A stretch of DNA of 34,281 nucleotides from Alphaproteobacteria bacterium (lineage in GTDB: Bacteria; Pseudomonadota; Alphaproteobacteria; Sphingomonadales; Govanellaceae), in assembly GCA_003695065.1 (NCBI GenBank), contig RFJA01000288.1, positions 1-34,281 of the forward strand, in the 5' to 3' direction. The notes under the pieces are model-generated. The model did not search any database, was not told the DNA's origin, and saw nothing but the letters and a program-made list of their open reading frames with translations. Every line of letters starts with the position of its first letter. The first letter of the stretch is position 1. Positions 139-33,816 of this stretch are shown one piece after another. Made by a program: the position numbers and the translations under genes.

Positions 139-173
139 GTGGTCGAGTGTTCATTTCGCCGAGGAGATTTGAT

Positions 174-7100: not shown

Positions 7101-7133
7101 GTATTTCGACCCTTGCTGCATCACTGTTGAAGC

Positions 7134-7145: not shown

Positions 7146-7192
7146 CTGCTTCAGGATAAAAGCATAGAATGCAATCACGCAAGGACGCAATA

Positions 7193-8218: not shown

Positions 8219-8220
8219 CC

Positions 8221-12148: not shown

Positions 12149-12922
12149 ATGGGGGGTAACAGCAATATGGGGACACTTGACGGCAAGGTGGCTGTGGTCA
12201 CCGGGGCGGCCCAGGGGATCGGCGCGGAGCTTGCCCGCGGGCTAGCCGCCATGGGTGCGATGGTTGTGGTGTCTGACGTGCTTGACGGGGCGGCTGTTGC
12301 CGACGAGATAAAAGGTGCGGGCGGCAGTGCTATTTCGTTGGTTACAGATGTGACCAGCGCGGACTCGCTTACCAAAATGGTCGAAGCGACGATCGGGGCG
12401 TTTGGCGGGATCGACATTCTGGTAAACAACGCGGCGTTATTTGGCAAGCTGCCATTGGCACCCATGCAGGAAATCCAGGTTGAGGTCTGGGACCGGGTTA
12501 TGGAGGTCAACGTTCGCGGCGTTTGGCAGGCCAGCTGCGCTGTGCTTGATAGTATGAAGGCACGTGGGGGCGGGTCGATTGTCAACATCGCCACCAACCG
12601 GGTTTTTAAGGGGTTTCCCATGATGCTGCATTATGACGCGTCCAAGGGGGCCGTGGTTGCGATGACCAAGTCCATGGCGGTGGAGCTTGGCGACCTGAAT
12701 ATCCGCGTCAACGCCATCGCCCCCGGCCTGACAATGAGCGAGAACGTGCTTGCCAAGGACGGGATCGAGGATCGAAAGGGCGCGATTGCGGGCGCCCGCG
12801 CGCTCAAGCGTGACCAGCAGCCCGAGGATCTGGTGGGGGCCGTAGCTTTTCTGGCGAGCGACCAGAGCTCTTTCATGACGGGGCAGACGCTGGTTGTCGA
12901 TGGCGGCGGGATTATGCGGTGA
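12149..12922 (+). CDS. Short-chain dehydrogenase/reductase (SDR)
   Basis: 257 aa, classical SDR. The cofactor motif is TGAAQGIG (18-25), 'NNAA' is at 93-96, and the active site has Tyr162 and Lys166 in YDASK. The residue 13 before Tyr, normally Ser, is Thr149 ('NIATNRVF'), a conservative change. The C-terminus 'FMTGQTLVVDGGG' is typical. It probably interconverts a secondary alcohol and a ketone with NAD(P). AAAGGA before the ATG at 12149 supports that start; a second in-frame ATG lies at 12167. The stop overlaps the transporter start by GTGA (12919-12922), so translation is coupled. Confidence 0.93.
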   Translation: MGGNSNMGTLDGKVAVVTGAAQGIGAELARGLAAMGAMVVVSDVLDGAAVADEIKGAGGSAISLVTDVTSADSLTKMVEATIGAFGGIDILVNNAALFGKLPLAPMQEIQVEVWDRVMEVNVRGVWQASCAVLDSMKARGGGSIVNIATNRVFKGFPMMLHYDASKGAVVAMTKSMAVELGDLNIRVNAIAPGLTMSENVLAKDGIEDRKGAIAGARALKRDQQPEDLVGAVAFLASDQSSFMTGQTLVVDGGGIMR

Positions 12923-14560: not shown

Positions 14561-16912
14561 ATGGCGACAAAGACTCATCCATCAGTTAGAGCGAAAGGCA
14601 CCAAGGCATCGGTCCTTCTCGGGACAGCGCTGGTCAGCATTTCGTTTATGACGCCGGCACAGGCGCAATCCAAGTCCTTCATGGACGAGATCGTTGTGAC
14701 AGCGCAGAAGCGGGAGCAAGGCCTCCAGTCCGTGCCTCTTGCGGTGACCGCCGCCACGGGCGAGCAGCTGGAGATGCTGAATCTTACAGATGTTGGGGAC
14801 GTGGAGTTCTTCACCCCCGGACTCCTTTGGGGGGAAGGTGGCTCGTCGCAGTGGCCGACCATCCGCGGCGTCAATACGCCCGTGAACGAAAACATCGGTG
14901 ACCCGTCCGTCGCCTTCTTTATCAACGGGGTTTACAAGAGCCGCACCGGTCAGGCCCTGGCCACCATGGTGGATGTGGAGCGTATCGAAGTGCTGCGCGG
15001 CCCACAAGGCACCCTGTTCGGACGGAATGCCACGGCCGGGGCGATCAATGTTGTAAGCCGCAAGCCCACTGATGAGTTCGAGTACGGGGTTGACGGTACC
15101 TTCGGAAATTATTCCACCCTTGAAGCGCAGGGTTATGTGAACATTCCGATCACCGAAAAGTTTCAGCTTCGCCTTGCCGGGTCAGGCAAGTCCCGGGACG
15201 GCTATGTGAACAATATCGGGACGGGGCCGGATCTGAACGATGAGGATATCTTCTACGGCCGCCTTTCGGCCAGAATCCTGCCGTCCGAGAATGTGGAGGT
15301 GATTGCCCGTATTTCAGGCATGGACCGCGACCGGGCTGGCGGCGGCGCGTTCACCTACAAGGTGCTTGGCCAGATGTTTGATGTATCCCAGGGCCAGCGC
15401 AGCGTCTTTGGCGAGCCCGTATTCATCAACCCCCGGGTCAGAGATGGTATTGCGGATTTTGTAAATGGTGTAAATGTGGGTGACATCGGGGTGCCGGTGA
15501 ACCTTGACCCCTATGTGGTTGACACCAACTTCAAGAATACGGAACGGACCAAGTCCATTGACGCCGATCTGGAGATTACCGTCGATCTCGACGGTATGGA
15601 GTTGAAGTCCATTACTGCCTACTCGGACTTCAGTTCGCTGCCCACCAACGATAACGACTTTACCTCATTGTCCGACATCCTGAACCGTTCGAGCCTGCTC
15701 AGCCAGGACGCGGAAACATTCACACAGGAAATTCAGCTGTCGTCCAACGATGATGGTCCCCTTCAGTGGGTGGTCGGTGCGTTCTACCTGAACGACAAGA
15801 CGTTCGAGATCTTCAGTATCGACGATGAAAATGGCATTCAGGGGCCTTTCCCCAACCGGGACGGTGACCTGACGACCTTCGTCTTCAACCGTCAAACGGA
15901 TGTGGATACGGAGTCATGGGCCGTCTTTGGTCAGGCCACCTACAACCTCACCGAAGACTTCAGCATCACCGCCGGGGGCCGGTACACCGAAGACAAGAAG
16001 GACTTCAAACTTCGGGAGTTCGGCTGGCTTGGCTTCCTCGGTTTCAACCCGGACATCGACTCCAGTGAGACGTTCGACAAATTCACGTGGCGCCTTGGTG
16101 CCGAGTACCAGGTCGATGACGACTCGCTTCTTTATGCCTCGGTGGCAACAGGGTTCCGCTCAGGTGGTTTCAACCGGTTTGTCGACGCGGGCACGACAGA
16201 TGCCAATACCTTCGACAGCGAAACCATCCGGACCTACGAGGTCGGGAGCAAGAACTCGCTTCTGGATGGCCGCATGCGTCTAAACCTTGCGGCCTATTAC
16301 AGCAAGCTCAAGAACCAGCAGGTTGCTACCGTGATTTCCGTTGGCGGCACCGGTCAGTCCGGCTTTGATAACGCCGGTAAGTCCGAGATCTATGGTGCCG
16401 AGCTTGAGCTTCAGGCCCAGGTCACGGAAAACTGGTTTGCCCAGGGAACGATGGCCTATGTCCATTCCGAATATAAGGAGTACTTCGCGGCCGGTTTTGC
16501 CGGGGATGGTCTGGGTGATCCCAACGTCATCGATGCCGGTGGCAGCCCGGTTATCGACCTTGCAGGCAATACCACCGAGCGCTCGCCCGAGTTCCGCGCG
16601 ACGTTGCTGTCGGGGTATGACTTCCCGCTTGATAACGGTGGGATGCTGACGCCGCTGGTTGCCTTTACGTACACCAGCAGCTTCTATAACACCCAGTTCA
16701 ACACGCCGCTGTTGAAGCAGGACAGCTATACGAAAACCGATCTCCGGCTCGTCTACACATCGCCTGACGCCCGCTTCAAGATCGAAGGCTATGTGGAGAA
16801 CCTTGAAGATGAGGCTGTCATCAGCCGGGGGACCTATGGCGGGAGTAATGCGGCATTCGTATCCTATGCCGCGCCGCTGACCTACGGGCTGCGTATTCGT
16901 CTTCGTAATTGA
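14561..16912 (+). CDS. TonB-dependent outer-membrane receptor
   Basis: 783 aa. The signal peptide is residues 1-35 with probable cleavage after AQA (TPAQA/QS). The TonB box DEIVVTA is at 42-48, followed by a plug domain ('VPLAVTAATGEQL', 'IRGVNTP', 'VDVERIEVLRGPQGTLFGRNATAGAINVVSRKP') and a 22-strand-type barrel. The layout is the sphingomonad-type receptor often found in aromatic and glycoside clusters. It imports a substrate too large or too scarce for porins, using TonB energy. The last residue is Asn (LRIRLRN) instead of the usual terminal aromatic residue. A very strong ribosome site implies high expression. A terminator follows at 16934-16958. Confidence 0.96.
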   Translation: MATKTHPSVRAKGTKASVLLGTALVSISFMTPAQAQSKSFMDEIVVTAQKREQGLQSVPLAVTAATGEQLEMLNLTDVGDVEFFTPGLLWGEGGSSQWPTIRGVNTPVNENIGDPSVAFFINGVYKSRTGQALATMVDVERIEVLRGPQGTLFGRNATAGAINVVSRKPTDEFEYGVDGTFGNYSTLEAQGYVNIPITEKFQLRLAGSGKSRDGYVNNIGTGPDLNDEDIFYGRLSARILPSENVEVIARISGMDRDRAGGGAFTYKVLGQMFDVSQGQRSVFGEPVFINPRVRDGIADFVNGVNVGDIGVPVNLDPYVVDTNFKNTERTKSIDADLEITVDLDGMELKSITAYSDFSSLPTNDNDFTSLSDILNRSSLLSQDAETFTQEIQLSSNDDGPLQWVVGAFYLNDKTFEIFSIDDENGIQGPFPNRDGDLTTFVFNRQTDVDTESWAVFGQATYNLTEDFSITAGGRYTEDKKDFKLREFGWLGFLGFNPDIDSSETFDKFTWRLGAEYQVDDDSLLYASVATGFRSGGFNRFVDAGTTDANTFDSETIRTYEVGSKNSLLDGRMRLNLAAYYSKLKNQQVATVISVGGTGQSGFDNAGKSEIYGAELELQAQVTENWFAQGTMAYVHSEYKEYFAAGFAGDGLGDPNVIDAGGSPVIDLAGNTTERSPEFRATLLSGYDFPLDNGGMLTPLVAFTYTSSFYNTQFNTPLLKQDSYTKTDLRLVYTSPDARFKIEGYVENLEDEAVISRGTYGGSNAAFVSYAAPLTYGLRIRLRN

Positions 16913-21351: not shown

Positions 21352-21444
21352 TATGGGAGTCTCATCCGAGCAAATTGTCGGCTTTGCCCCTCAGGCGGGC
21401 GCAATGTTCGAATACGCGAAGAATTGATAAGGAGGTCTGTCCTG

Positions 21445-22815
21445 ATGTCTAGCCGGTCGCTTGAAGACAAGATCAAGGAAGTCGGGAATCCGGTCGATAT
21501 GCTGCGGAATGCGCAGATCGGGCCCTATGAATTCCCGATCAAGAGCGAATTCAGTAACTGGCGGGATGAGCAGGAGGCCTGGAACAAGACGGCGGTCCTT
21601 TTCGATCAGTCCTATCACATGACGGATCACTATATTGAAGGCCCGGATGTCAAGCGGCTGCTCAAGGACCTCGGGATCAACTCCTTCGAGACTTTCGGTC
21701 GCAACAAGGCCAAGCAATTGGTGGTTTGCAACTACGACGGTTACGTCATTGGCGACGCAATCCTGTTTGGCCTTGAAGAAGACAAGGTCAATATTGTCAA
21801 CCGTCCCGTGGCGGGGAACTGGGTCCAGTTCCATGCCGAGACGGGCGGCTATGATGTGAAGGTGGACAAGGATGACCGTGCCCTCGACAACACCGGCGTC
21901 CGCAAGGGTTACCGTTTCGAAGTTCAGGGCCCGAACGCCTGGGAAATCCTTGAGAAGGTGAACGGCGGCCCCATCGAAGGTTTCAAGTTCTTCGGTATGG
22001 GCGAAATCACCATCGCCGGGCGCAAGGTCCGGGCGCTTCGCCACGGCATGGCGGGTGCGGCGGGCCTCGAGCTTTTCGGCCCCTATGAGGAGCGCGAGGA
22101 CATCCGGGGTGCAATCCTCGAGGCGGGCCGGGACCTTGGCCTTCTCGAGGCCGGGTCCAAGACCTATTCAACGGTTGCCCACGAATCCGGGTGGATCCCG
22201 TCTCCGCTTCCGGCCATCTTTACCGGCGACAAGATGAAGGCGTTCAGGGAATGGCTGCCTGCCGACGGGTTCGAGGCCAATGGCTCGCTCGGTGGCAGCA
22301 TGGTAAGCGATAATGTTGAGGATTATTACCTGACGCCCTGGGATCTCGGTTACGGGCACATCCTGAAATTCGACCATGACTTCATCGGCCGCGAGGCGCT
22401 TGAGAAGATGAAGGACCAGCCCCACCGCAAGAAGATGACGCTGGTGTGGGAGCCCGAAGACGTGATCCGCATCTTTGCATCCCTGTTCAATGACGGCGAT
22501 CGCTTCAAGTTCATGGACATGCCGGCGTCCCACTATGCAACCTATCCCTACGATATGGTGGTCAAGGGTGACAGGCAGGTCGGGATTTCCTGCTATCCGG
22601 TCTACACCTCCAATTATCGGCGCTGGATTTCGCTCTGCATGCTGGACGAGAGCGTGGCCAATGTGGGTGACGAGCTTGAAATCGTCTGGGGTGAGCCCGG
22701 CGGTGGGTCCGACAAGCCCGTGGTCGAGCGTCACATCCAGACCCGGGTGCGGGCGAAGGTCACTGACTGCCCCATCTCGAAGACGGCGCGGGAAGTCTAT
22801 CGGAAAAATCCCTGA
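21445..22815 (+). CDS. ligM: Tetrahydrofolate-dependent aryl O-demethylase (LigM/DesA family, GcvT fold)
   Basis: 456 aa from the ATG at 21445, which has a full AAGGAGGT 8 bases upstream. The protein aligns by eye along its whole length with LigM (471 aa) as I remember it: 'MLRNAQIGPYEFP', 'EFSNWRDEQEAW', 'AVLFDQSYHM', 'NKAKQ', 'YGHILKFDHDFIGREAL', 'ESGWIPSPLPAIFTGDK'. LigM functional residues Gln57, His60, Arg122 and Tyr247 correspond to Q55, H58, R120 and Y241 here. LigM and DesA move the methyl group of vanillate, 3-O-methylgallate or syringate to THF, giving 5-methyl-THF. The neighbours metF and purU recycle the folate. Which methoxy substrate is used cannot be told; a non-aromatic methoxy donor is possible. 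Confidence 0.92.
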   Translation: MSSRSLEDKIKEVGNPVDMLRNAQIGPYEFPIKSEFSNWRDEQEAWNKTAVLFDQSYHMTDHYIEGPDVKRLLKDLGINSFETFGRNKAKQLVVCNYDGYVIGDAILFGLEEDKVNIVNRPVAGNWVQFHAETGGYDVKVDKDDRALDNTGVRKGYRFEVQGPNAWEILEKVNGGPIEGFKFFGMGEITIAGRKVRALRHGMAGAAGLELFGPYEEREDIRGAILEAGRDLGLLEAGSKTYSTVAHESGWIPSPLPAIFTGDKMKAFREWLPADGFEANGSLGGSMVSDNVEDYYLTPWDLGYGHILKFDHDFIGREALEKMKDQPHRKKMTLVWEPEDVIRIFASLFNDGDRFKFMDMPASHYATYPYDMVVKGDRQVGISCYPVYTSNYRRWISLCMLDESVANVGDELEIVWGEPGGGSDKPVVERHIQTRVRAKVTDCPISKTAREVYRKNP

Positions 22816-22834
22816 GAACTTTGAGGGGTCCGAT

Positions 22835-22867
22835 ATGTCATCCGACCTGCGGGCACTCGCGGCATAG
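22835..22867 (+). CDS. Possible 10-residue leader peptide (MSSDLRALAA)
   Basis: ATG at 22835 and TAG at 22865-22867, with GAGGGG 9 bases upstream, in the 69-base gap between the O-demethylase and metF. It may couple metF translation, or be the remnant of an earlier metF start. It is weakly supported. Confidence 0.25.
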   Translation: MSSDLRALAA

Positions 22868-22884
22868 CTTGAACGGAGACCTGT

Positions 22885-23805
22885 GTGGCGGACACCATCA
22901 ATAGCGACGCGGCGCTTTCACGCCTGCTGACCGGATATTCGGCGGAAGTCACATCGCCGGACCGCAAGGCCATTGATGCAGCGGCGGATGTCATGCCTGA
23001 AGGCGCTCGGGTCTATATCGCGGCGCTCCCGAACAAACCGGTGGATGGTCAGGTGGAGGCGGCCTCAAGGCTGCGGGGCATCGGGCTTGAACCCGTTCCT
23101 CATCTGGTGGCGCGTAGTTTCGCAAGTCCCGAAGACCTCGACAGGCTTCTCGGGCAGCTCGTGGAGGGTGCGGCCATAGAGCGAGCGCTTGTTCTGGGTG
23201 GTGACCGGGATGATCCCGCAGGGAACATGACGTCCGCGCTGGATATCATCAGGACAGGGCTTTTAGAGGATCACGGTATCCGCCGTATCTCCATCGGGTG
23301 TTACCCTGAAGGCCATCCACGGATCAGCGATGAGGAGCTGCGTCGTGCTTTGCATGAAAAGCTGGAGGCGGCGGACAAGGCCGGGCTTGAAACGATCCTG
23401 GTCAGCCAGTTTTGTTTTGACCCCAATGCAATACTGAATTTTGTCCGGGATTTGCGGGCGGACGGTATCAATACGCCTATTCGCATCGGTGTGGCAGGCC
23501 CGGCCAAGGCTGCGACGCTGATCAAGTACGCCATGATATGCGGGGTCGGCCCGTCGCTTCGCGCACTGAAGGAACGGCAAAGTCTGGCCCGCAACCTGCT
23601 GGGTGCGGTCACGCCAGAGGACATTCTTCGTGATGTTGCCGTTGCGCGGGAGCGGGAGCCCGAGCTTAGGATCTGGGGGATTCACTTTTTCACGTTTGCG
23701 GCGCTCAGGAAATCCATCGAGTGGGCAGAAGAGCGGATTGACAGGTCAAAGGACCCGGATGCGGTCCCCGATGACGTTTTCGCTGAAAACTCCGAAAAGC
23801 CATAA
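22885..23805 (+). CDS. metF: 5,10-methylenetetrahydrofolate reductase (MetF family)
   Basis: 306 aa from a GTG at 22885, with GGAG about 6 bases upstream. The TIM-barrel flavoprotein pattern is visible: 'AEVTSPDRKAID', 'ALVLGGDRDDPAG' (the family 'LxGD' block), 'IGCYPEGHP' (matching the conserved 'YPExHP'), 'LVSQFCFD' and 'WGIHFFTFA' near the C-terminus. In methionine synthesis it makes 5-methyl-THF. Beside a LigM-type demethylase it most likely runs in reverse, oxidising 5-methyl-THF to methylene-THF, as proposed for Sphingobium metF next to ligM. It is slightly longer than the ~296-aa E. coli protein. The next gene follows after 59 bases. Confidence 0.92.
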   Translation: MADTINSDAALSRLLTGYSAEVTSPDRKAIDAAADVMPEGARVYIAALPNKPVDGQVEAASRLRGIGLEPVPHLVARSFASPEDLDRLLGQLVEGAAIERALVLGGDRDDPAGNMTSALDIIRTGLLEDHGIRRISIGCYPEGHPRISDEELRRALHEKLEAADKAGLETILVSQFCFDPNAILNFVRDLRADGINTPIRIGVAGPAKAATLIKYAMICGVGPSLRALKERQSLARNLLGAVTPEDILRDVAVAREREPELRIWGIHFFTFAALRKSIEWAEERIDRSKDPDAVPDDVFAENSEKP

Positions 23806-23864
23806 GACCGGCTTTCAGGGTTTGCGGGGGGTGTAGCCTCCGGGCCCTCAGAAGGAGAGATGTA

Positions 23865-24467
23865 ATGGCAAGGCGGAATTCATATCTCGAACTTGTTAAT
23901 GGGCCCCCCAATCCGTTGCAGGAGGCATTGGGGCTAAACAAGGCGGCCGGTGAGATGGTGAATGCCTACCATCAGGTGGTCATGCGTGGCGAATCCAGCA
24001 TTTCTCCCGCCCTCAGGGAAGCCATTGCGGCTTTTGTATCCACCCTCAACATGTGCCCATTGTGCAGCGAGGCCCATACCCGTGTCGCAGAGTTACTGGG
24101 CGTTGACCCCGATGTGATCTTGGCGCTGCGTAAAGATGTGGAGGGAGCGCCGGTGAGGGAAAAGGAGCGCCCGCTCTTTGCCTACGCCAAGAAGATGACC
24201 CTGGCTCCTTCTACATTATCGAAAACCGATGCAGAGCGTGTCTTCAAGGCAGGATGGAACGATCGAGATCTGCACGACGTGATTAACGTCATCTGCATCT
24301 TCAATTTCATAAATCGGTTCGTCCTCGGTCACGGAATAGAGGTGAGCGAGGCGGATGTGGAATACAGCGCGCAGATGCTTGCGAGCAAAGGTTACTGGGA
24401 TGGGGAAAAAGTCCCTGCCCTTGGTGATATCTTCTTTACCGAAGTTCGGCCGATACTTGCACAATAG
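23865..24467 (+). CDS. AhpD-like / carboxymuconolactone-decarboxylase-family protein
   Basis: 200 aa; AAGGAG lies 8 bases before the ATG. The AhpD motif E52 ... C64-x-x-C67-x-x-x-H71 ('NMCPLCSEAH') is intact, which favours a thiol peroxidase or disulfide-reductase type rather than a true gamma-carboxymuconolactone decarboxylase. The all-helical CMD fold is suggested by the rest. Such proteins are often called 'peroxidase-related enzyme'. In this operon it may protect the oxygen-sensitive THF or flavin enzymes, or act on a lactone intermediate; neither is shown. Confidence 0.85.
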   Translation: MARRNSYLELVNGPPNPLQEALGLNKAAGEMVNAYHQVVMRGESSISPALREAIAAFVSTLNMCPLCSEAHTRVAELLGVDPDVILALRKDVEGAPVREKERPLFAYAKKMTLAPSTLSKTDAERVFKAGWNDRDLHDVINVICIFNFINRFVLGHGIEVSEADVEYSAQMLASKGYWDGEKVPALGDIFFTEVRPILAQ

Positions 24468-24531
24468 TCTGTTCATTATGATGCGCCATGTTCTCTGATA
24501 TCCGTTCATGTGCCGAGAGGAGAAAAGCCCG

Positions 24532-25392
24532 ATGATCAATCCTTTGATCCTCACCCTGTCCTGCGATGACAAGCCAGGCATTGTCGCCGCGGTCACGACC
24601 CTTCTTCATGAGAACGGTGGCAACATCCTTGAGGCCCAGCAGTTCGACGATATGGAGACCGGGCGCTTCTTCATGCGTGTGATGTTCAACCTGTCTGACG
24701 AGGGCGGGTCTGCAGAGGAGGTGAGGGAGCAGTTCCACCGCCTTGCAGAAGAGTATGGTATGGACTGGAGAATTCGTGCCCGGAATGCGCGGAAACGCGT
24801 TTTGATGATGGTTTCAAAGTTCGATCACTGTCTTGGTGACCTGCTCTACAAGATGCGCATTGGGGAACTAAACATGGATGTTGTGGGGATCATCTCCAAT
24901 CATCCCAAGGATGCGTTGAACCTCACCACGTTCGGTGACATCCCTTATCATCATCTTCCGATCACGAAAGAAACCAAGCCTGAGCAGGAAGCCCAGGTCA
25001 AAAAGATCATCGAGGACACGGGCGCCGAACTGGTGGTGCTCGCCCGGTACATGCAGGTTCTGTCCGATGACATGTGCCGCTTTCTTGATGGCCGATGCGT
25101 CAACATTCATCACAGTTTCCTGCCCGGCTTCAAGGGCGCAAAACCCTATCACCAGGCGCATAGCCGGGGGGTAAAGATGATCGGTGCAACGGCTCATTTC
25201 GTGACCAGGGATCTTGATGAGGGTCCGATCATCGCCCAGGATGTGGAGCCCATAACCCATGCGGACTCGCCGGATGACCTTGTGCGAAAGGGCCGGGATA
25301 TAGAGCGCAGGGTACTCTCCCGGGCCGTGGCCCATATCCTGGAGGACAGGGTCCTGATGAACGGATCGAAGACGGTGGTTTTTGCAGGATGA
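24532..25392 (+). CDS. purU: Formyltetrahydrofolate deformylase (PurU)
   Basis: 286 aa from the ATG at 24532, with GAGGAG upstream; the earlier ATG at 24508 lacks a ribosome site. An N-terminal ACT-like domain (residues 1-80, 'LILTLSCDDKPGIVAAV') is followed by a formyltransferase domain from 'RVLMMVSKFDHCL'. Catalytic features are 'VNIHHSFLPGFKGAKPY' with His193/His194 and the Asp of 'RDLDEGPII' (Asp229). It hydrolyses 10-formyl-THF to formate and THF. Here it would close the C1 loop: methyl to THF, oxidation, then formate release, with THF regenerated for the demethylase. The intermediate FolD step is not encoded in the window. Its stop overlaps the next gene by ATGA. Confidence 0.95.
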   Translation: MINPLILTLSCDDKPGIVAAVTTLLHENGGNILEAQQFDDMETGRFFMRVMFNLSDEGGSAEEVREQFHRLAEEYGMDWRIRARNARKRVLMMVSKFDHCLGDLLYKMRIGELNMDVVGIISNHPKDALNLTTFGDIPYHHLPITKETKPEQEAQVKKIIEDTGAELVVLARYMQVLSDDMCRFLDGRCVNIHHSFLPGFKGAKPYHQAHSRGVKMIGATAHFVTRDLDEGPIIAQDVEPITHADSPDDLVRKGRDIERRVLSRAVAHILEDRVLMNGSKTVVFAG

Positions 25393-26237
25393 CGAAGATG
25401 CTGGACTGGCTTGAAGATCAGTACGTTACAGATCTCGCGCGCCAGAAATCATCTGACCTTTTTGCGGAATATGCGGAGCGCAGTGCAGAATGCGCACGCA
25501 CTCTCGGGACGCACATAGATGTCCCTTACGGTGACGCCCCTCGGCAGCGCCTGGACATTTACATGCCCGCGAGCGATGCGCCTGTGCCCGCCCTGTTCTT
25601 TATTCACGGCGGATACTGGAAAGCCGGGGACAAATCCATGCGCAGCTTCCCGGCGCCTGCCTGGGTTAACCGCGGGTGCGCCTTCATTGCGATCAATTAC
25701 CGCCTCCTGCCGGACACGCCCCTGGCGTCCATTCTGTCTGACGCGCGCTCCGCGCTGATCTGGGTGATGCGAAACGCTGAAGGGATCGGAATAGACCCCG
25801 CCCGCATTGCTATCTCGGGCACATCGGCGGGCGGGCACCTCTCCGCAATGCTGGCGACAGAGGACTGGCGTGCTTACGGTGGCGGGGCTCCGGGAGGAAT
25901 TAGCTGTGCGGCCCTCATCAGCGGGCTCTTTGACCTTGGGCCCTTGCTCGCCACTTCCATGGGATCTGCCCTCGCGTTGACGCCTGCGGATGCGCACGAA
26001 TTGAGTCCTGTCAATCGACTCCCCTGCGACCAGCTTCCGGTGATGATTGCGGTGGGCGAACAGGAATCCGATGCGTTTAAATATCAGAGCAAGGCTCTGG
26101 CCAACCGCTGGCAGGCATTTGGTTTGTCGCCAAAGCTCTCCGTCGTGCCGGAGCGGGACCATTTCACGGTTTTTGCGGACCTCGCAGATCCCGATAGCGA
26201 GCTTTCCTGTTTCGTGGCGCAAAATCTGGGTGTTTAA
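25389..26237 (+). CDS. Alpha/beta hydrolase (kynurenine-formamidase/esterase-like)
   Basis: 282 aa, overlapping purU by 4 bases. The oxyanion-hole motif HGGYW is at 73-77, the nucleophile elbow GTSAGG at 144-149 (Ser146), and the catalytic His258 in 'PERDHFTVF'; the acid is probably in 'GEQESDAF' (224-231). This layout is shared with bacterial arylformamidases and hormone-sensitive-lipase-like esterases. It probably hydrolyses an ester, lactone or formamide of the pathway. Translational coupling with purU (formate release) makes an N-formyl substrate attractive, but there is no direct evidence for it. Confidence 0.9.
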   Translation: MTKMLDWLEDQYVTDLARQKSSDLFAEYAERSAECARTLGTHIDVPYGDAPRQRLDIYMPASDAPVPALFFIHGGYWKAGDKSMRSFPAPAWVNRGCAFIAINYRLLPDTPLASILSDARSALIWVMRNAEGIGIDPARIAISGTSAGGHLSAMLATEDWRAYGGGAPGGISCAALISGLFDLGPLLATSMGSALALTPADAHELSPVNRLPCDQLPVMIAVGEQESDAFKYQSKALANRWQAFGLSPKLSVVPERDHFTVFADLADPDSELSCFVAQNLGV

Positions 26238-26264
26238 GTCCGAAACCTGATCGGCCCTCTTTTG

Positions 26265-26278
26265 GTTGTATTTACAAC
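26265..26278. promoter_or_regulatory. HutC-type operator, site 9
   Basis: GTTGTATTTACAAC is a perfect match to the consensus arms. It overlaps the -35 box of the promoter listed at 26266-26294, so a bound regulator should block RNA polymerase. Confidence 0.85.
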
Positions 26279-26294
26279 TTTTCTCGCCTATAGT
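26266..26294 (+). promoter_or_regulatory. Predicted promoter of the PYROXD2-aconitase X operon
   Basis: The -35 TTGTAT (26266-26271) and -10 TATAGT (26289-26294) are separated by 17 bases. The expected leader is about 80 nt. The same arrangement, with TACAGT as -10, precedes the paralogous gene at 32239-33816. Confidence 0.7.
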
Positions 26295-26378
26295 CTGGAA
26301 AACTTCGACAAGCGTAAGCAGAGAGTGCTGTCGGCTGTTCAACGGGCAGGTCGGCCATGGGAAGGTACGGAAAACCAT

Positions 26379-27953
26379 ATGACGGACAAGTATGATGCGA
26401 TAATTGTTGGCGGCGGCCACAATGGATTGACATGTGGCGCCTATCTCTCGAAAGCGGGCCTCAAGACGCTTGTGATTGAACGCCGTGATATTCTGGGCGG
26501 GGCGGCCGTCACGGAAGAGTTTTCACCGGGCTTCAGCGCGTCGTCCTATTCCTTCATCATGGGGCACCTGCACCCCAAGGTGATCAAGGACCTTGAGCTT
26601 GAGAAGTTCGGCCTGAGCCGCGTGGTCGTTGATAACGTTATCAACCCGACCGAGGACGGTGACTGCATCGTCTTCTCCAAGGACCCGAAGAAGACGCAGG
26701 CCCAGATCGCACGCTTTTCCCAGAAGGATGCGGAGAATTACCCCAAGTTCTTCGCCTCCATGCAGAACGCCATCGACCTCTTGCGCCGCCTTCAGTTCGA
26801 AGTGCCGGTGGACCCGGTCAAGCGGGATATCAAGTCCCTGATCAAGGCCGGCAAGTTCGGCTGGAAATACCGGGATGTGAGCGACGAAATCTACGATATC
26901 ATCGACGGCCTCTCCTTGAGCGCGCACGATTATGTGGACCGCTGGTTCGAAACCCCGGTGGTCAAGGCGAAATTCATGTACTGGGCGACCATAGGCGGTA
27001 ACGTCGGCCCCTATTCGCCGGGCACCGCCTTCTACCTGATCGCTCACCTGATCGGTCAACTGGGCATGAGCTTCCCCATTGGCGGCATGGGCGCCATATC
27101 GAATGCCATTCACGCGTCCGGCAAAACGGCAGGTCTCGAGACGCGGGTCTCTGCCCCGGTGGAAAAAATCCTCGTTCGCGACGGGCGGGCCTATGGCGTG
27201 CGCCTTGAAAGTGGGGAGGAAATCCATGCCAGGTGCGTGGTCACCAACGTCAACGCCAAGATCGCGTTCGGCCAGATGGTGGACAAGGAACATCTGCCCG
27301 AAGAAATCGTTGGCAGGATCAGTCGCTATCGGACACGGGGCAAATCGTTCAAGATCCTTTGCGCGACGGACAGCCTGCCTGAGTACGCGTCCTTTAGCCA
27401 GGAAAAGACCGGGGTCGATTACCCCGCCTATGCCCATATCGGTCCCACGCCCGAATACCTGGAGCGGGCGTTCGACGATGCGAAATACGGCTGGTATTCC
27501 AAGAAGCCGTTCCTCTCGGCTATCGTGCCCACATATTATGACAAGACCCTCGCGCCCGAGGGCAAGCATGTGGTGTCGCTTTATGGCGGGGTCGCGCCTT
27601 TCGAACTTGAGGGCGGAAGCTGGGACAAGGAACGCAAGAACCTGGTCCGGAATGCCTTTGACGTCATGGACGAATACGCTCCCGGATTTTCGGATACGGT
27701 CCTCGACTATAAGCTGATCCTGCCCAAGGACATCGAAGAAGTGGTCAACATGCCGGGCGGCAATACGCTTCACGGTGAAATGACGCTGGATCAGTTGTTC
27801 TTCGGTCGTCCTGTTCCGGGCCTTGCCGATTATCGCAGCCCCATCACGGGCCTCTATCAGTGCGGTGCCTCAAGCCATCCGGGTGGTGCAGTGTCCGCCG
27901 TGCCGGGCCATAATGCGGCCCGCGAGATCCTGAAGGACTGGAAGCGGCTCTAG
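26379..27953 (+). CDS. FAD-dependent oxidoreductase, phytoene-desaturase/PYROXD2-like (copy 1)
   Basis: 524 aa from the ATG at 26379; the frame is open to 26262, but that extension contains the promoter and operator. The FAD dinucleotide motif 'DAIIVGGGHNGLTCGAYL' is at the N-terminus, followed by 'VIERRDILGGAAVTEE'. 'GMGAISNAIH' and 'GASSHPGGAVSAVPGHNAAREIL' at the C-terminus are typical of the COG1233/PYROXD2 group. Known relatives desaturate or saturate isoprenoids, but for this branch no reaction is established to my knowledge. It probably oxidises a cyclic or enol intermediate. It leads an operon with the tautomerase-like gene, aconitase X and FAH. A paralogue is at 32239-33816. Confidence 0.92.
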   Translation: MTDKYDAIIVGGGHNGLTCGAYLSKAGLKTLVIERRDILGGAAVTEEFSPGFSASSYSFIMGHLHPKVIKDLELEKFGLSRVVVDNVINPTEDGDCIVFSKDPKKTQAQIARFSQKDAENYPKFFASMQNAIDLLRRLQFEVPVDPVKRDIKSLIKAGKFGWKYRDVSDEIYDIIDGLSLSAHDYVDRWFETPVVKAKFMYWATIGGNVGPYSPGTAFYLIAHLIGQLGMSFPIGGMGAISNAIHASGKTAGLETRVSAPVEKILVRDGRAYGVRLESGEEIHARCVVTNVNAKIAFGQMVDKEHLPEEIVGRISRYRTRGKSFKILCATDSLPEYASFSQEKTGVDYPAYAHIGPTPEYLERAFDDAKYGWYSKKPFLSAIVPTYYDKTLAPEGKHVVSLYGGVAPFELEGGSWDKERKNLVRNAFDVMDEYAPGFSDTVLDYKLILPKDIEEVVNMPGGNTLHGEMTLDQLFFGRPVPGLADYRSPITGLYQCGASSHPGGAVSAVPGHNAAREILKDWKRL

Positions 27954-27984
27954 GCCGCCCCCACATGAAGCGAAGGAGACTATA

Positions 27985-28176
27985 ATGGCGATTGTAAGAG
28001 TGATCATGCTTGAGGGCCGAAGCACCGAAATCAAGGCGCGGGTGATCAAGGGCATCACCGAGGTGATGAACCGGGAAGTGGATCCGGACCCGAGCCATGT
28101 GCGGGTCGTCATCGAGGAGGTCAAGCCCGAAAACTATGGTGTGGCCGGTCGCTACATCGGCCAGCCGGCTGACTGA
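27985..28176 (+). CDS. 4-oxalocrotonate-tautomerase-like protein with Ala replacing Pro-1
   Basis: 63 aa including Met. AAGGAG is well placed before the only sensible ATG, so the second residue is certainly Ala ('MAIVRVIMLEGRS'). After Met removal the chain has 62 residues, like 4-oxalocrotonate tautomerase (4-OT). Arg11 and Arg39 (in 'HVRVVIEE') of 4-OT are kept, and position 50 is Tyr. The catalytic Pro-1 of the superfamily is Ala. It could be a non-tautomerase catalyst, a partner subunit or a decayed enzyme. The position between the flavoenzyme and aconitase X suggests a role on an enol or keto acid in the same branch. Confidence 0.9.
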   Translation: MAIVRVIMLEGRSTEIKARVIKGITEVMNREVDPDPSHVRVVIEEVKPENYGVAGRYIGQPAD

Positions 28177-28201
28177 TAACAACGGTTGAAGAGGTAAACA
28201 C

Positions 28202-29488
28202 ATGTTTCTCACCGACGAGGAAAAGGCGGTTCTGGACGGGAGCGAGGGCGAGGCCCGCGCCCACGCCATGGACCTGATGGTGCGCTATGCGAAGGCGTTA
28301 GGGGCCGAGCGGCTGGTCGAAACGAACAACGTGTGCGGCGGTGTAGTAGGCTCTCTGCCGGGCCGCCGGGATGTGCTTCCCGAGGACAAGCGCCACGACA
28401 TGAATGCGGTCTATTCGCTTTTGAATCTTGATAGCGACAAGACCCTCGACATCCCGCCGGTCAAGACCAATACCTACCGCCTGATCGAGGCCATGGACGC
28501 CGATCTTTATGACGTTCAGGGTGTCGGGGAGGAAACCCAGCGGCTCGTCCGGGAGACCACCGCATTCTGCCAGAAGAGCGGCTACCAGCTTTGTAACACC
28601 TGTACGCCCTACCAGGTGGGCAATGTGCCCTTGTTTGGTGAGCATTGCGCCTGGATGGAATCCTCGGCCGTCATTTACATCAATTCCCTGATTGGTGCGC
28701 GTTCCAATGTCGAGGGAGCGCACAGTACGGCAGCGGCTTCCCTGATCGGTAAAATTCCCTATTGGGGATACCACATCCCGGAAAATCGCCGGGGCACACA
28801 TCTGGTAGAGGTGGAGTACCCGATCGATAACATGCTCGACTGGGGGTTGATGGGGTATTACGTGGGCGAAAAGGTGCAGGAGAACGTGCCTGTCTTCACA
28901 GGCATTTCCGGTGTGCCCAACGCCAACAAGCTGAAGCATTTCGGCGCCTCCATGGCAAGCTCCGGCGGGGTCGAGATGTACCATATCGTCGGCGTGACCC
29001 CCGAGGCGCCAACCCGCGACGTGGCCTTTGGCGGTAACCGGGCACAAGAGACGATCAGGTTCGGGCGCGCCGAGCTGGAGGAGGCCTACAGCTGGTTCAG
29101 CACGGCCAAGGACACGGACGTTGATTTCGTCGTGCTCGGCTGTCCCCATGGCTCGCTTGAACAGGTCCGCCTTGTTGCCGGCCTCCTCGAAGGCAAGAGG
29201 CTCTCCGCCAATACCGACCTCTGGATGTTTATCCCGCGCTCCATAAAGGCGATCGCGGACCGAATGGGGTATACGGACACATTCCGCAAGGCGGGAGCCT
29301 ACCTGATGACCGACAGTTGTGCAGCACTCAGCAAGGTTTCTCCCAAAGATGTGAAGACGGCAGCTACCGACTCCTGTAAGCAGGCGCATTATCTGCCCGC
29401 CACCATGGGATTCGGCACTTGGCTTGGCAGCACGGAACAGTGTGTGAATGCGGCCATTAGCGGAAAATGGACGGGAGGTCTTGAGTGA
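28202..29488 (+). CDS. Aconitase X large subunit (AcnX catalytic domain)
   Basis: 428 aa. AcnX family blocks are clear: 'CNTCTPYQVGNVPLFGEHCAWMESSAVIYINSLIGARSNVEG' from residue 131, and later 'FVVLGCPHGSLEQ' and 'MTDSCAALS'. Cysteines are at 45, 131, 134, 149 and in the later two blocks; some should ligate the iron-sulfur cluster. Known AcnX proteins are cis-3-hydroxy-L-proline dehydratase (bacteria) and mevalonate 5-phosphate dehydratase (archaea). The large and small subunits are separate genes here, and the start of the small subunit overlaps this stop (29485-29488). Neighbours do not point to hydroxyproline or mevalonate, so the substrate is probably another beta-hydroxy acid of this pathway. 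The gene starts 25 bases after the tautomerase-like gene. Confidence 0.92.
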   Translation: MFLTDEEKAVLDGSEGEARAHAMDLMVRYAKALGAERLVETNNVCGGVVGSLPGRRDVLPEDKRHDMNAVYSLLNLDSDKTLDIPPVKTNTYRLIEAMDADLYDVQGVGEETQRLVRETTAFCQKSGYQLCNTCTPYQVGNVPLFGEHCAWMESSAVIYINSLIGARSNVEGAHSTAAASLIGKIPYWGYHIPENRRGTHLVEVEYPIDNMLDWGLMGYYVGEKVQENVPVFTGISGVPNANKLKHFGASMASSGGVEMYHIVGVTPEAPTRDVAFGGNRAQETIRFGRAELEEAYSWFSTAKDTDVDFVVLGCPHGSLEQVRLVAGLLEGKRLSANTDLWMFIPRSIKAIADRMGYTDTFRKAGAYLMTDSCAALSKVSPKDVKTAATDSCKQAHYLPATMGFGTWLGSTEQCVNAAISGKWTGGLE

Positions 29489-29916
29489 CCGTAATCATTC
29501 TCAAGGGTCGCCCGGTCGTGGAAGGGGTTGCCGAGGGTGAAGCGCTTGTCACCCGACAGACCATCTCCGGCTTTGGCGGCATCAACAACCAGACAGGGGA
29601 AATAACTGAAGTCCGCCACGAACTCAGGGGCAAGTCCTTCAAGGGCAAGGTTCTCGTCTTTCCCGGCGCCAAGGGATCGTCCGGCTGGGCCAGTCATTTC
29701 CAGACCGTGCGGCTTGCCGGCGCCGCCCCCGCGGCGATGATCTTCAACATCACCACCACGAAGATGGCGCTGGGCGCGGTCGTGACGCGGGTGCCAGCCG
29801 TCACCGATTTGGATCAGGATCCCCTTGACGTGATCGAGACCGGTGACTGGGTCAAGGTGGATGGCAATACGGGCACGGTCACCATAACCAAGCCGGACAG
29901 GAAGGACGGGGCGTGA
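29485..29916 (+). CDS. Aconitase X small subunit (AcnX swivel domain, DUF126)
   Basis: 143 aa. The DUF126 swivelling-domain pattern is visible: 'LKGRPVVEGVAEGEALVT', 'ISGFGGINNQTGEI', 'KVLVFPGAKGSSGWASHFQTVRLAG', 'GTVTI'. Ser residues in the 'GAKGSSG' loop match the conserved active-site region of aconitase X small subunits. It forms a heterodimer with the preceding large subunit. It overlaps that gene's end by 4 bases and the FAH gene's start at 29913-29916, so three genes are translationally coupled. Confidence 0.93.
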   Translation: MTVIILKGRPVVEGVAEGEALVTRQTISGFGGINNQTGEITEVRHELRGKSFKGKVLVFPGAKGSSGWASHFQTVRLAGAAPAAMIFNITTTKMALGAVVTRVPAVTDLDQDPLDVIETGDWVKVDGNTGTVTITKPDRKDGA

Positions 29917-30737
29917 GAGTAGCTATAACGGTCGATGGACGGATCATCATCGAGCAGGGGGGCAGCCAGTTCGACGCAAGCGCGCTCGCCCGGAAGATAA
30001 AGCCCGTGTGGCCCGCCGAGCCCGGCGACCCGTTCATGCAGATCTGGGCCGATATCCGGGCATTGACGGACGACGAGATCGCGGCGCTGCCCCCGATCTC
30101 TGTTGACGGGTCCAAGCTCAGGAATCCCATCCGCTCCCCCAACAAGATACTCGGGGCCATGGCCAACTACACCGCGGCCGACGGCGCGATCCCCGAAACC
30201 TCGATCCGCAAGTATGGCTTTTTCGTCAAGGCGAACTCTGCCATCACGTCTCCGACGGAGGGGGTGGTGGTCCCTGCGGACATGCCCACCCTGCACGAGC
30301 CTGAACTCTCGCTGATTATCGGGCGGACGATCAGGTTCGCAAGCCATGACGAGGCCCGCGAGGCCATCGCCGCCGTCTGCGGGTCGCTCGACATGACGGG
30401 CAAGAGCAGCCACCTTTTCAGTCACCGCAAATCCCTGGACAGTTTCGCCGTGTTCGACTCATGGCTGACACCGATTGATGAGTTCAGTGCGCCCGAGGAC
30501 CTCCACGACCTCGGCATAAAGCTCTGGATCAATGAAGACTTGCGCCAGGACGGTAGCACCAATCGGCTGATCTGGAAGCCGATAGATCTGGTTGTGGAGG
30601 CGTCGCGCTATTTCACACTTTACCCCGGCGACATCATAATGTGTGGCACGCCGTCCGGCGTTGGGCCTGTGGAGCCCGGCGACCAGATCCGGGTTGAAAT
30701 CGAGCGGACGGCAGGTTTCAGTGTTCCGGTCCGGTGA
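29913..30737 (+). CDS. Fumarylacetoacetate hydrolase (FAH)-family protein
   Basis: 274 aa. Metal ligands of the FAH fold are visible: Glu129 and Glu131 in 'HEPELSLIIGR' and Asp160 in 'CGSLDMTGKS'. The C-terminal 'GDIIMCGTPSGVGPVEPGD' block is intact, as is 'RKSLDSFAVFDSW' near residue 172. Members hydrolyse acylpyruvates, decarboxylate oxaloacetate or hydrate 2-oxopent-4-enoates; all act on 2-keto-acid carbon-carbon bonds with Mg or Mn. It overlaps the AcnX small subunit by 4 bases, so it probably acts directly after AcnX. The N-terminal ~70 residues form the usual small cap domain. Confidence 0.93.
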   Translation: MRVAITVDGRIIIEQGGSQFDASALARKIKPVWPAEPGDPFMQIWADIRALTDDEIAALPPISVDGSKLRNPIRSPNKILGAMANYTAADGAIPETSIRKYGFFVKANSAITSPTEGVVVPADMPTLHEPELSLIIGRTIRFASHDEAREAIAAVCGSLDMTGKSSHLFSHRKSLDSFAVFDSWLTPIDEFSAPEDLHDLGIKLWINEDLRQDGSTNRLIWKPIDLVVEASRYFTLYPGDIIMCGTPSGVGPVEPGDQIRVEIERTAGFSVPVR

Positions 30738-30747
30738 GTAACGCGTA

Positions 30748-32142
30748 ATGGGCAAGGTGCAGGTGGCTGACGAGGACAGACTGACAGTTCGCCAGCGCGC
30801 GTCCTACGGGGTCGGGATCGGAGGGCTGTGGATGGTCTTCATGACCACGGCCTTCTACCTTCTCTATTTCTACACGGACGTGCTTGGCCTGTCCGGCAGC
30901 GAAGCCGGGCTCATTCTTCTGATCGCGACGCTCTGGGATGCGGTTACGGACCCGGCCATGGGATATCTGGTCAGCCGCACACGCAGCCGATGGGGGCAGT
31001 ACCGCCCGTACCTGATCTTTGGCGCTTTCCCGATGGCGGTCAGCTTCGTCGCCGTGTTTCTGCGTCCCGACTTCGTAGCCGGACAAATTTTCCTGTTCGC
31101 GCTCCTGACCCAGATTATTTTCAGGACCCTGTTCACGGTGGTCTATATTCCCTATACCGCGCTCATTTCACGCTTGTCGCGGGATGCGAACGAGCGCGCC
31201 TCCATTGCGAGCGTCAAGGCCTTCTTCGTCTCCGCCGGTGCCTTGACGGCGTCCTATTTCGGCCTCCCACTGGTGGCGGCGCTTGGGCAGGGGGATGATC
31301 TTCAGGGTTTCATTCTGACGGCCGGGATATTTGGCGGCGTCGCCACACTCACCCTGATGTTCACTGGCTTTACCGTCCGGGAGAAAGGGGCTGTTGGCAA
31401 GACCCGGGCGGAAGCCGCCGGGGAGGCCCTGTTCGAGGATACATCCTCCATAAAGGAAGCGCTCAGTGGCCTGTTCAGGAACCAGGCGTTCCTTCTCGTT
31501 TTCTTTGGCGTGATCATGTTCACGGGCTGCTACACGGTGCTGAACAAGACAAGCATCTATTTCTTCGAATATGACTATGGTGACCGCGGCGCGGTCCGCT
31601 ATCCGTTGACGGCCATATCCGTCGCCGGACTGGTCGCACCCTTCCTGTGGGCGAAGGTCACCCATATGACCAGCAAGCGCTTTGTCTGGGTCAGCGGCTG
31701 CCTTTTGGCGGCGGCCTGTCTGGTGACGTTCTACGCGCTCGGTTCGCAGAACCTGTCGCTGGTGTGGATCACGGCCATCTATTTCATGACCGGCGTCGGC
31801 ATTCAGGCCTTCCTGATGACGTTCTACGCGATGACGGCGGACGCCATTGATTACGGGGAATGGAAGACGGGACAAAGGGTAGAGGCTATGGGCTTTGGCC
31901 TTCTCTCTTTCGCCAGCAAGTCGTCGCTCGCACTGGGCGGTTTTGCCCTTGGCTTCCTGCTCGACGAGATCGGCTACGTTTCGAAGGCGGTCCAGAGTGA
32001 AGACGTTCTCGCCGATATCCGCCTTATCCTTGTTTTCTTCCCGACTGCCGGCTTCCTTTTGTCCGCGCTGATTATCAGCTTCTTCCCGGTGTCCACGCAA
32101 AAGCATCGGGAAATCATGAAGGAAATTCGGAACCGTAAGTGA
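30748..32142 (+). CDS. MFS transporter, GPH family (second copy)
   Basis: 464 aa, about 12 hydrophobic segments. GPH signatures are 'ATLWDAVTDPAMGYLVSRTRSRWGQYRPYLI' and 'FYAMTADAIDYGEW'. It begins 10 bases after the FAH stop and is the last gene of the operon. It is a paralogue of the carrier at 12919-14295. Na+- or H+-coupled uptake of the substrate of the PYROXD2-AcnX branch is likely. Confidence 0.94.
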   Translation: MGKVQVADEDRLTVRQRASYGVGIGGLWMVFMTTAFYLLYFYTDVLGLSGSEAGLILLIATLWDAVTDPAMGYLVSRTRSRWGQYRPYLIFGAFPMAVSFVAVFLRPDFVAGQIFLFALLTQIIFRTLFTVVYIPYTALISRLSRDANERASIASVKAFFVSAGALTASYFGLPLVAALGQGDDLQGFILTAGIFGGVATLTLMFTGFTVREKGAVGKTRAEAAGEALFEDTSSIKEALSGLFRNQAFLLVFFGVIMFTGCYTVLNKTSIYFFEYDYGDRGAVRYPLTAISVAGLVAPFLWAKVTHMTSKRFVWVSGCLLAAACLVTFYALGSQNLSLVWITAIYFMTGVGIQAFLMTFYAMTADAIDYGEWKTGQRVEAMGFGLLSFASKSSLALGGFALGFLLDEIGYVSKAVQSEDVLADIRLILVFFPTAGFLLSALIISFFPVSTQKHREIMKEIRNRK

Positions 32143-32238: not shown

Positions 32239-33816
32239 TCATTTCAGTTTGCTGTAATCCTTGAGAATCTCTCGTGCGGCATTGTGACCTGGTACGGCAG
32301 AGACCGATCCTCCTGGATGAGCCGAGGAGCCGCATTGGTAAAGCGACCGGATCGGGCTGCGATAATCTGCGTAGTGTGGTGCAGGACGCTTGAAAAATAG
32401 CTGGTCAAGGGCTACTTCCCCATGCAGTTCGTGGCCACCGGGCATGCCCAGAACATCCTCGAGATCGTGGGGCAGAAAGACTTTGTAGTCGATCAGGCTC
32501 TCGCTGAATCCTGGCGAGAATTCATCCATCACCGAAAAAACATTGGCGACGAAACGGTCACGTTCATCGTCCCAGCTTGCTCCTTTCAGTTCATAAGGGG
32601 CGTGTCCGCCCGATAGTGTGACCACGTGTTTGCCTTCGGGGGCAAGTGTGTTGTCAATGGCGCTTGGTGTGATCGGAGACACGAAGGGACGAGCCGAGTA
32701 CCAACCGTGTTTGGCGTCGTCATAGGCGCGTTCCATGAACTCGATTGTCGGGCCGATATGGGCATAAGCTGGATATTCCAACCCTGCTTGGCCGGGCGTG
32801 AAGCCGCGGTACTGCGGAAGCCGGTCGACGGCACAGTTGATCTTGTAAACCTCGCCCCGGCTTCGCCAGCGGTCTATATTGGCCATGAAGTCTTCAGGCA
32901 GTTCCGATCTGGGGACCAGGCGTCCAAATGAAACCGGAGCCGCGAGGTTGGACGCTACCAGTTTCGCATTGAATTCGCGCCCGTCCTCTGTCACCACACC
33001 AGTGGCACGTCCATTTTTAACAACGACTCTTTCGACGGCCGCATCGGTCAGGATTTCCATCCCGTATTTACGCCCGGCTGCGGCGATCGCATTCGACACG
33101 CTGCCCATTCCACCCTTGGCAAAACCCAGCCCATTTTCTCCCAGAAGGTGGAACAGGATAGAGTACGCGGTGCCTGCGGCACGCGGACCCCGGAAATTAC
33201 CGATGCCAGCCCAATAGCAGAACAGCGCCTTGACTTCCTCGCACTCGAACCAACGGGACACGAAATCATAGGCTGACTGGGTCATGGCATCGGTGATATT
33301 GTAAAACTCCTCACCCATGCCACGGTAACGCCAGGCCATGCGCGCCACATTCTTCAGCGCAGACCAACTGCGGTCACCGGGGTCGACGGGTGTTTCCAGT
33401 AGCATTCGTCGAAGCACCGAGATCGTTTGGGTGATGTCCTCGATAAATTTCGGATAGGCTTCGGCGTCTTTTTTCGAAAATCGCGCAATTTCAGTCTGAG
33501 TTGTCGATACATCGGTGGAGAAAACGATGCTATCGTCATTATCCAGCGGATGCAGCACCTCGCCCATTTTCAGATGGGTCAGGCCGAATTGCTCCAGCTG
33601 CAGCTCTCGGATCACCTTCGGGTGCACGTGGCCCATGATGTAGCTGAAGGTCGAGGCTCGGAAGCCGGGGTGGAATTCTTCGGTTACCGCGGCGCCACCG
33701 ACAATGTGGCGTCGCTCCAGCACCAGCGTCTTGAGGCCTGCCTTGGCCAGATAAGCTCCGCAGGTCAGTCCATTGTGGCCCCCGCCAACGATTATCGCAT
33801 CGTATTCATTCGTCAT
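32239..33816 (-). CDS. FAD-dependent oxidoreductase, phytoene-desaturase/PYROXD2-like (copy 2)
   Basis: 525 aa, the same domain layout as the copy at 26379-27953: FAD motif 'DAIIVGGGHNGLTCGAYLAK', 'ERRHIVGGAAVTEEFHPGF', 'KGGMGSVSNAIAAAGRK' and C-terminal 'GSSAHPGGSVSAVPGHNAAREIL'. By eye roughly half the residues are identical, so the duplication is old. The ATG at 33816 has GAGGAAA about 8 bases upstream. Its promoter, operator and part of its leader resemble those of copy 1. It points toward the other operon. The two proteins could catalyse sequential steps or form a heteromer; this is inference. Confidence 0.93.
   Translation of the reverse strand: MTNEYDAIIVGGGHNGLTCGAYLAKAGLKTLVLERRHIVGGAAVTEEFHPGFRASTFSYIMGHVHPKVIRELQLEQFGLTHLKMGEVLHPLDNDDSIVFSTDVSTTQTEIARFSKKDAEAYPKFIEDITQTISVLRRMLLETPVDPGDRSWSALKNVARMAWRYRGMGEEFYNITDAMTQSAYDFVSRWFECEEVKALFCYWAGIGNFRGPRAAGTAYSILFHLLGENGLGFAKGGMGSVSNAIAAAGRKYGMEILTDAAVERVVVKNGRATGVVTEDGREFNAKLVASNLAAPVSFGRLVPRSELPEDFMANIDRWRSRGEVYKINCAVDRLPQYRGFTPGQAGLEYPAYAHIGPTIEFMERAYDDAKHGWYSARPFVSPITPSAIDNTLAPEGKHVVTLSGGHAPYELKGASWDDERDRFVANVFSVMDEFSPGFSESLIDYKVFLPHDLEDVLGMPGGHELHGEVALDQLFFKRPAPHYADYRSPIRSLYQCGSSAHPGGSVSAVPGHNAAREILKDYSKLK

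Follow-up and report, generated by a model that had tools for sequence, protein, structure and literature searches.

A two-subunit aconitase X of an uncharacterised clade lies in a conserved gene island with a putative role in the catabolism of an O-methylated ring compound

The stretch analysed here, called the window, comprises 34,281 nucleotides of contig RFJA01000288.1 from an alphaproteobacterium of the Govanellaceae, which shares its order, Sphingomonadales, with Parasphingorhabdus marina. It contains a co-directional gene run (21424-32142) that opens with a LigM/DesA-like tetrahydrofolate (THF)-dependent O-demethylase, a methylenetetrahydrofolate reductase (MTHFR) homolog and PurU. Near the end of this run lie the genes for the large and the small subunit of an aconitase X (AcnX-L and AcnX-S), followed by a hydrolase gene of the FAH family. 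The initial annotation had described the latter three genes as a tandem with 4-base overlaps, and the coordinates and Pfam matches bear this out for both junctions, AcnX-L/AcnX-S and AcnX-S/FAH. It had overlooked a small tautomerase gene immediately ahead of AcnX-L and the link of AcnX to the LigM-like operon (21424-25392) and to genes of oxalomesaconate metabolism (6015-8892). The four genes at the center of this analysis are:

27985-28176 (+): 4-oxalocrotonate-tautomerase-like protein of 63 amino acids (PF01361, E 2.1e-14)
28202-29488 (+): AcnX-L, aconitase X large subunit, domains 1-3 (PF04412, 387 bits, E 1.2e-115)
29485-29916 (+): AcnX-S, aconitase X small subunit, swivel domain (PF01989, 82.5 bits, E 1.9e-23)
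29913-30737 (+): FAH-family hydrolase (PF01557, 121 bits, E 6.4e-35)

No further AcnX gene was found in the source genome (2.46 Mb, 82% complete). As judged from its domains and active-site residues, the pair is a real two-subunit dehydratase of the AcnX family. The active-site residues were located by profile alignment to the structures 7cnr and 7cnq for AcnX-L and to 7cnr_B and 7d2r for AcnX-S, using the published active sites as residue reference (PMC8184944). Cys134, Cys314 and Cys373 of AcnX-L align with the Fe-S ligands, are invariant across 21 aligned relatives and most likely hold a [4Fe-4S] cluster, as is present in ApPMDh, the archaeal type IIb enzyme of A. pernix (PMC10040528). AcnX-L also retains Glu153, Ser154, Lys393 and Tyr397 at positions that form the active sites of AtAcnX and TkAcnX, and Ser65 of AcnX-S aligns with the general-base serine and is the predicted general base. 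All four landmark positions of cis-3-hydroxyproline (C3LHyp) dehydratases are substituted: Trp35, Thr72, Asp203 and Ile206 are replaced by Phe30 and Gly67 of AcnX-S and by Cys45 and Val48 of AcnX-L, respectively. Val48 also takes the place of the phosphate-site residue Ser50 of TkAcnX; the phosphate-binding positions Asn53 and Asn79 of TkAcnX fall in a stretch without reliable alignment to 7cnr.

In a tree of 42 AcnX sequences, in which type IIa has no reference sequence, the window AcnX and eight relatives (59-77% identity) formed one clade with a support of 99/98. The approximately unbiased (AU) test argued against grouping the window AcnX with the type I hydroxyproline dehydratases (p = 2.6e-7) and against grouping it with the archaeal enzyme (p = 4e-4, with a long branch and an incomplete TkAcnX sequence). 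Landmark residues and tree together speak against both a hydroxyproline dehydratase and a phosphomevalonate dehydratase of the mevalonate route. This agrees with the initial annotation, which had found neither function to fit, had proposed the phylogenetic placement as a check and had noted that no proline racemase or pyrroline reductase is encoded nearby; neither gene was detected in the window by open reading frame (ORF) and profile searches. Since the landmarks and the tree oppose both known AcnX activities, a new AcnX reaction, as envisaged by that annotation, is plausible for this clade. The clade most likely belongs among the bacterial types IIc-IIf, which lack both landmark sets and were published without an assigned function (PMC8184944, PMC10040528). 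A more distant and larger AcnX clade (45-55% identity) occurs in Sphingomonadaceae, Rhodobacterales, Actinomycetota and others, where it pairs with a PF12831 flavoprotein and often with an IlvD/EDD dehydratase and TRAP or ABC transporters. The betaproteobacterium G786 carries both clades, and because they co-reside in this genome, they probably have different jobs.

The neighbourhoods of the nine clade members, spanning 16-61 kb each, were compared. They derive from the window, G781, Parasphingorhabdus marina (G772), a member of the Hyphomonadaceae (G782), a member of the Sphingomonadales (G389), two gammaproteobacteria (G783 and G784), a member of the Rhodobacteraceae (G785) and the betaproteobacterium G786. 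Genes for AcnX-L, AcnX-S, a tautomerase of the 63-residue type, a BNR propeller protein and an SDR dehydrogenase are present in all nine islands. An aldehyde dehydrogenase (ALDH), a CrtO-like flavoprotein and a GntR regulator occur in eight, the LigM-like demethylase, an isochorismatase-like hydrolase and a TonB receptor in seven, and a RidA-like protein in five. A 4-oxalomesaconate (OMA) tautomerase is encoded in four islands and scores above the model cut-off in seven of the nine genomes, and a bicupin is found in four islands and eight genomes. In most islands AcnX is accompanied by the SDR/ALDH genes or the CrtO-like gene and not by OMA genes; a LigJ-like protein stands beside it in three. 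What recurs around AcnX in these islands suggests O-demethylation, the oxidation of an alcohol and a route through 4-oxalomesaconate. Only the window island holds the FAH gene, and no ortholog was found in the eight other genomes with an AcnX of this clade, the best match (36%) lying at an unrelated locus in one of them. By this distribution it is a local addition or accessory of the window genome, and the AcnX reaction is therefore not to be inferred from it.

Among 401 Sphingomonadales genomes, a close AcnX (at least 69% identity), the LigM-like protein (at least 77%, the next best match having 61% and the threshold having been chosen after this gap was seen) and the propeller protein (at least 47%) occurred in exactly the same three genomes, which belong to three families. 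The chance of such co-occurrence for one pair is 1 in 10.7 million, or 1 in 79,800 if the source genome of the window is left out. The propeller protein is as constant across the islands as AcnX, and among the 401 genomes it was present only in the three with a close AcnX. In the tautomerase, which is similar to 4-oxalocrotonate tautomerase (4-OT), the catalytic Pro1 is replaced by Ala in all nine islands, while Arg11 and Arg39 are present and the GR and VRV motifs appear in the alignment. A survey published in 2017 covered over 11,000 tautomerases; Pro1 was missing from 346, of which only 13 belonged to the 4-OT subgroup (PMC5818174).

Further genes of the window are:

36-650 (+): RidA/YjgF-like protein (PF14588)
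683-1405 (-): GntR/UTRA regulator, likely of the island (PF07702/PF00392)
2117-3193 (+): BNR/sortilin-type beta-propeller protein (PF15902/PF02012)
3309-4460 (+): VanA-type Rieske oxygenase (PF19112/PF00355), in two of nine islands
4457-5140 (+): isochorismatase-like hydrolase (PF00857)
5146-6162 (-): DUF1932 NAD-binding dehydrogenase (PF09130), in four islands
6015-7190 (-): OMA tautomerase, GalD/LigU type (NF033377, 504 bits, cut-off 440)
7169-8218 (+): amidohydrolase-2 protein (PF04909), likely a LigJ-like 4-oxalomesaconate hydratase, between the OMA tautomerase and the next gene
8215-8892 (+): 4-carboxy-4-hydroxy-2-oxoadipate (CHA) aldolase, LigK/GalC type (TIGR02798, 364 bits, cut-off 304.5)
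10616-12145 (+): ALDH (TIGR02299, 484 bits, below the cut-off)
12149-12922 (+): SDR dehydrogenase
12919-14295 (+): second GPH symporter (PF13347)
14561-16912 (+): TonB-dependent receptor (PF00593/PF07715)
21424-22815 (+): LigM/DesA-like THF-dependent O-demethylase (NCBIfam LigM model 591 bits, cut-off 580; DesA model 619 bits)
22885-23805 (+): MTHFR-like protein (PF02219)
23865-24467 (+): carboxymuconolactone decarboxylase/AhpD-like protein (PF02627), in only one other island
24508-25392 (+): formyltetrahydrofolate deformylase PurU (TIGR00655, above the cut-off)
25389-26237 (+): alpha/beta hydrolase, esterase (PF20434)
26262-27953 (+): CrtO/phytoene-desaturase-like FAD oxidoreductase (PF01593)
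30748-32142 (+): GPH-type sugar:cation symporter (TIGR00792, above the cut-off)
32239-33816 (-): second CrtO-like FAD oxidoreductase, of the same cluster as that at 26262-27953

A single in-frame stop interrupts a GMC oxidoreductase gene at 8899-10503 (-) and leaves two ORFs, reflecting either an assembly error or a decaying gene. DUF2848-type proteins adjoin the BNR gene in several islands (L002:3226-3900, L006:2282-2944), and the window segment 1495-2109 looks DUF2848-related by eye and has no Pfam match. A DUF2848 protein as a stand-in for FAH was considered and discarded; it has no solved relative. The island of P. marina additionally encodes a protein resembling cobalamin-independent methionine synthase (PF01717, L094:13467-14774), which has a homolog in the Rhodobacteraceae genome G785 and could possibly provide a second methyl-transfer step. 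A sulfatase gene was seen in one island.

The LigM-like protein of the window is 51% identical to LigM (5x1i), and the island proteins share 63-77% identity among themselves and 48-51% with LigM. In six aligned members the catalytic Tyr is kept and a Phe stands at the position of a second Tyr; these two positions we take to be Tyr247 and Tyr31 of LigM. As regards the lower route, the complete genome of P. marina contains the OMA tautomerase, a LigJ-like protein and the CHA aldolase, and no LigB-type dioxygenase was found in it by a PF02900 search; the corresponding search for LigA (PF07746) was run without a positive control and does not show absence. Because the OMA genes are present and a LigB-type dioxygenase was not found, the oxalomesaconate of P. 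marina probably comes from a source other than the standard gallate dioxygenase. The first domain of the bicupin shows the cupin motif HxH..E; the protein matches acireductone dioxygenase weakly and had no match among solved structures. Near it, P. marina encodes two SnoaL-type proteins with weak or no matches among solved structures, and bicupin and SnoaL-type proteins may constitute a new ring-opening system. A LigB-type gene is present in the window's own genome, where it adjoins genes for an HpaE-type ALDH and a DHDPS-family protein. Given these neighbours, its product is more likely a homoprotocatechuate-type enzyme, and it was rejected as gallate dioxygenase.

Based on the observed genes, residues, tree, conservation and co-occurrence, we consider it probable that the AcnX of this clade is a dehydratase within a conserved gene island that serves to break down an O-methylated C7 ring of gallate pattern; for the AcnX reaction, the order of the steps and the substrate we infer the following scheme. 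AcnX would dehydrate a beta-hydroxy acid or an equivalent beta-hydroxy enolone in the manner of its two known relatives, the alpha proton going to Ser65 of AcnX-S and the beta-hydroxyl being abstracted by the cluster's open iron. The SDR and the ALDH would oxidise an alcohol side chain (a carbinol), and the Ala1 tautomerase would shift an enol. The LigM-like enzyme would pass the O-methyl group to THF, with the MTHFR and PurU disposing of the C1 unit. The bicupin is a candidate ring-cleaving oxygenase, perhaps the OMA source in P. marina, and the OMA tautomerase, the LigJ-like hydratase and the CHA aldolase would finish the route to pyruvate and oxaloacetate. Since the scheme combines an O-methyl group, a beta-elimination and an OMA end point, the simplest substrate has a C7, gallate-patterned ring.

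The leading candidate for such a substrate, put forward tentatively, is 4-deoxygadusol, the core of the mycosporines and gadusols, which include sunscreen pigments of algae. With similar reserve, AcnX may catalyse the committing dehydration in the bacterial degradation of mycosporine-like amino acids or gadusols. According to our own chemical derivation, removal of the amino substituents would yield 4-deoxygadusol (C8H12O5), which by loss of one water would give 5-hydroxymethyl-2-methoxyresorcinol (C8H10O4). Oxidation of the CH2OH group would then lead to 4-O-methylgallate, the LigM-like enzyme would form gallate, and ring opening by the bicupin would give oxalomesaconate. The RidA-like and amine-oxidase-like proteins could handle imine or enamine groups. 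The C7 skeleton and the three adjacent ring oxygens of the mycosporine core have their atom-by-atom counterparts in gallate and oxalomesaconate. A literature search for mycosporine catabolism retrieved only the bacterial conversion of shinorine and porphyra-334 to mycosporine-glycine and 4-deoxygadusol and no degradation pathway. Several points weigh against this assignment and the scheme as a whole. The kept carboxylate-binding residues suggest a carboxylate substrate, and 4-deoxygadusol is a vinylogous acid (an acidic enolone). To our knowledge, the characterised LigM-family enzymes act on aromatic ethers. The bicupin may not cleave rings, and the islands were located by an AcnX search, so that the presence of AcnX in all nine is by construction.

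The main rival to the mycosporine core is a syringyl- or lignin-type aromatic compound. In that case, the LigM-like and OMA enzymes would degrade a methoxylated phenol, and AcnX would dehydrate an aryl beta-hydroxy propanoic acid side chain, e.g., that of an arylglycerate, which the SDR and the ALDH could produce. The LigM/DesA-like demethylase, the VanA-type Rieske oxygenase and the GMC oxidoreductase of the window are in line with this, as are a tannase in one island and a GST in another. We nevertheless regard it as rather unlikely, since P. marina has no detectable LigB dioxygenase, the LigB-type gene of the window genome lies next to the HpaE-type ALDH gene, CoA-dependent side-chain genes were not seen in the islands, and the tautomerase, the propeller protein and the bicupin would be left unexplained.

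The initial annotation had instead coupled AcnX to the FAH protein as one functional unit, with FAH cleaving the product that AcnX forms by dehydration of a beta-hydroxy di- or tricarboxylic acid. The overlapping tandem order speaks for this model, and so does the nature of the FAH protein, whose closest solved relative is a maleylpyruvate hydrolase (6jvv, E 1.7e-37) and whose relatives split 2,4-diketo acids by C-C bond hydrolysis. The absence of the gene from eight of the nine genomes dismisses FAH as an obligatory partner, so that the coupling does not hold and the model appears improbable. An equally poor prospect is that AcnX serves as a second (de)hydratase for 4-oxalomesaconate or CHA. 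As a beta-hydroxy acid, CHA resembles citrate, seven of the nine genomes have OMA genes, and a pathway end of this kind, which the initial annotation had also considered, fits the island; the step is, however, already served by the LigJ-like and CHA-aldolase genes, with LigJ-like proteins next to AcnX in three islands, and AcnX mostly keeps other company than the OMA genes. For a C3LHyp dehydratase speaks that the best NCBIfam model is that family, albeit with 219 bits against a cut-off of 700. This reading is very improbable, because the four landmarks and the AU test oppose it, and the window is devoid of hydroxyproline genes, whereas true type I loci carry the epimerase.

Across the entire AcnX family, two reactions have been described, and no function is listed for the two-chain bacterial types IIc-IIf. 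AcnX itself and its uncharacterised subclasses, published as such, are prior knowledge; added here are the island of this clade, the lost link to FAH, the Ala1 tautomerase and a substrate hypothesis. The conserved context of about 20 genes, the concrete hypothesis on the substrate and a carrier that is cultured and completely sequenced (P. marina DSM 22363) open a third AcnX reaction to direct testing. Should the mycosporine core prove to be the substrate, these would be genes for the breakdown of widespread natural sunscreens.

With types IIc-IIf, the window AcnX shares the bacterial two-chain organisation and the lack of the landmark residues of either known reaction. Separate large and small subunits are also found in the archaeal phosphomevalonate dehydratases (type IIb; TkAcnX, 7cnr/7cns, and ApPMDh). 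TkAcnX has the same three-Cys ligand set (Cys110, Cys283 and Cys342) and the same Glu, Ser, Lys, Tyr and general-base Ser; the window AcnX differs from it in the exchange of Ser50 for Val48, in its distinct clade and in the absence of an isoprenoid context. Type I (AtAcnX, 7cnp/7cnq) belongs to the same superfamily and agrees in the domain set and the Ser, Glu, Lys and Tyr catalytic positions, but it is a single fused chain with the four landmarks and another Cys ligand set, which holds a [2Fe-2S] cluster. In the LigM/S6MTHFR module of Sphingobium lignivorans SYK-6, a THF-dependent O-demethylase with the presumed Tyr247 is likewise combined with an MTHFR homolog; the island proteins form a separate orthologous group with Phe at the presumed Tyr31 position, and their gene is linked to AcnX and the tautomerase. 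The SYK-6 pair passes the O-methyl group to THF and disposes of the C1 unit (PMC12585457). With the lower pathway of gallate/protocatechuate 4,5-cleavage, the island has in common the OMA tautomerase and the CHA aldolase, whose scores exceed the curated cut-offs, and the adjacent LigJ-like amidohydrolase, but LigC and LigI were not seen in the islands, and no LigB-type dioxygenase was found in P. marina.

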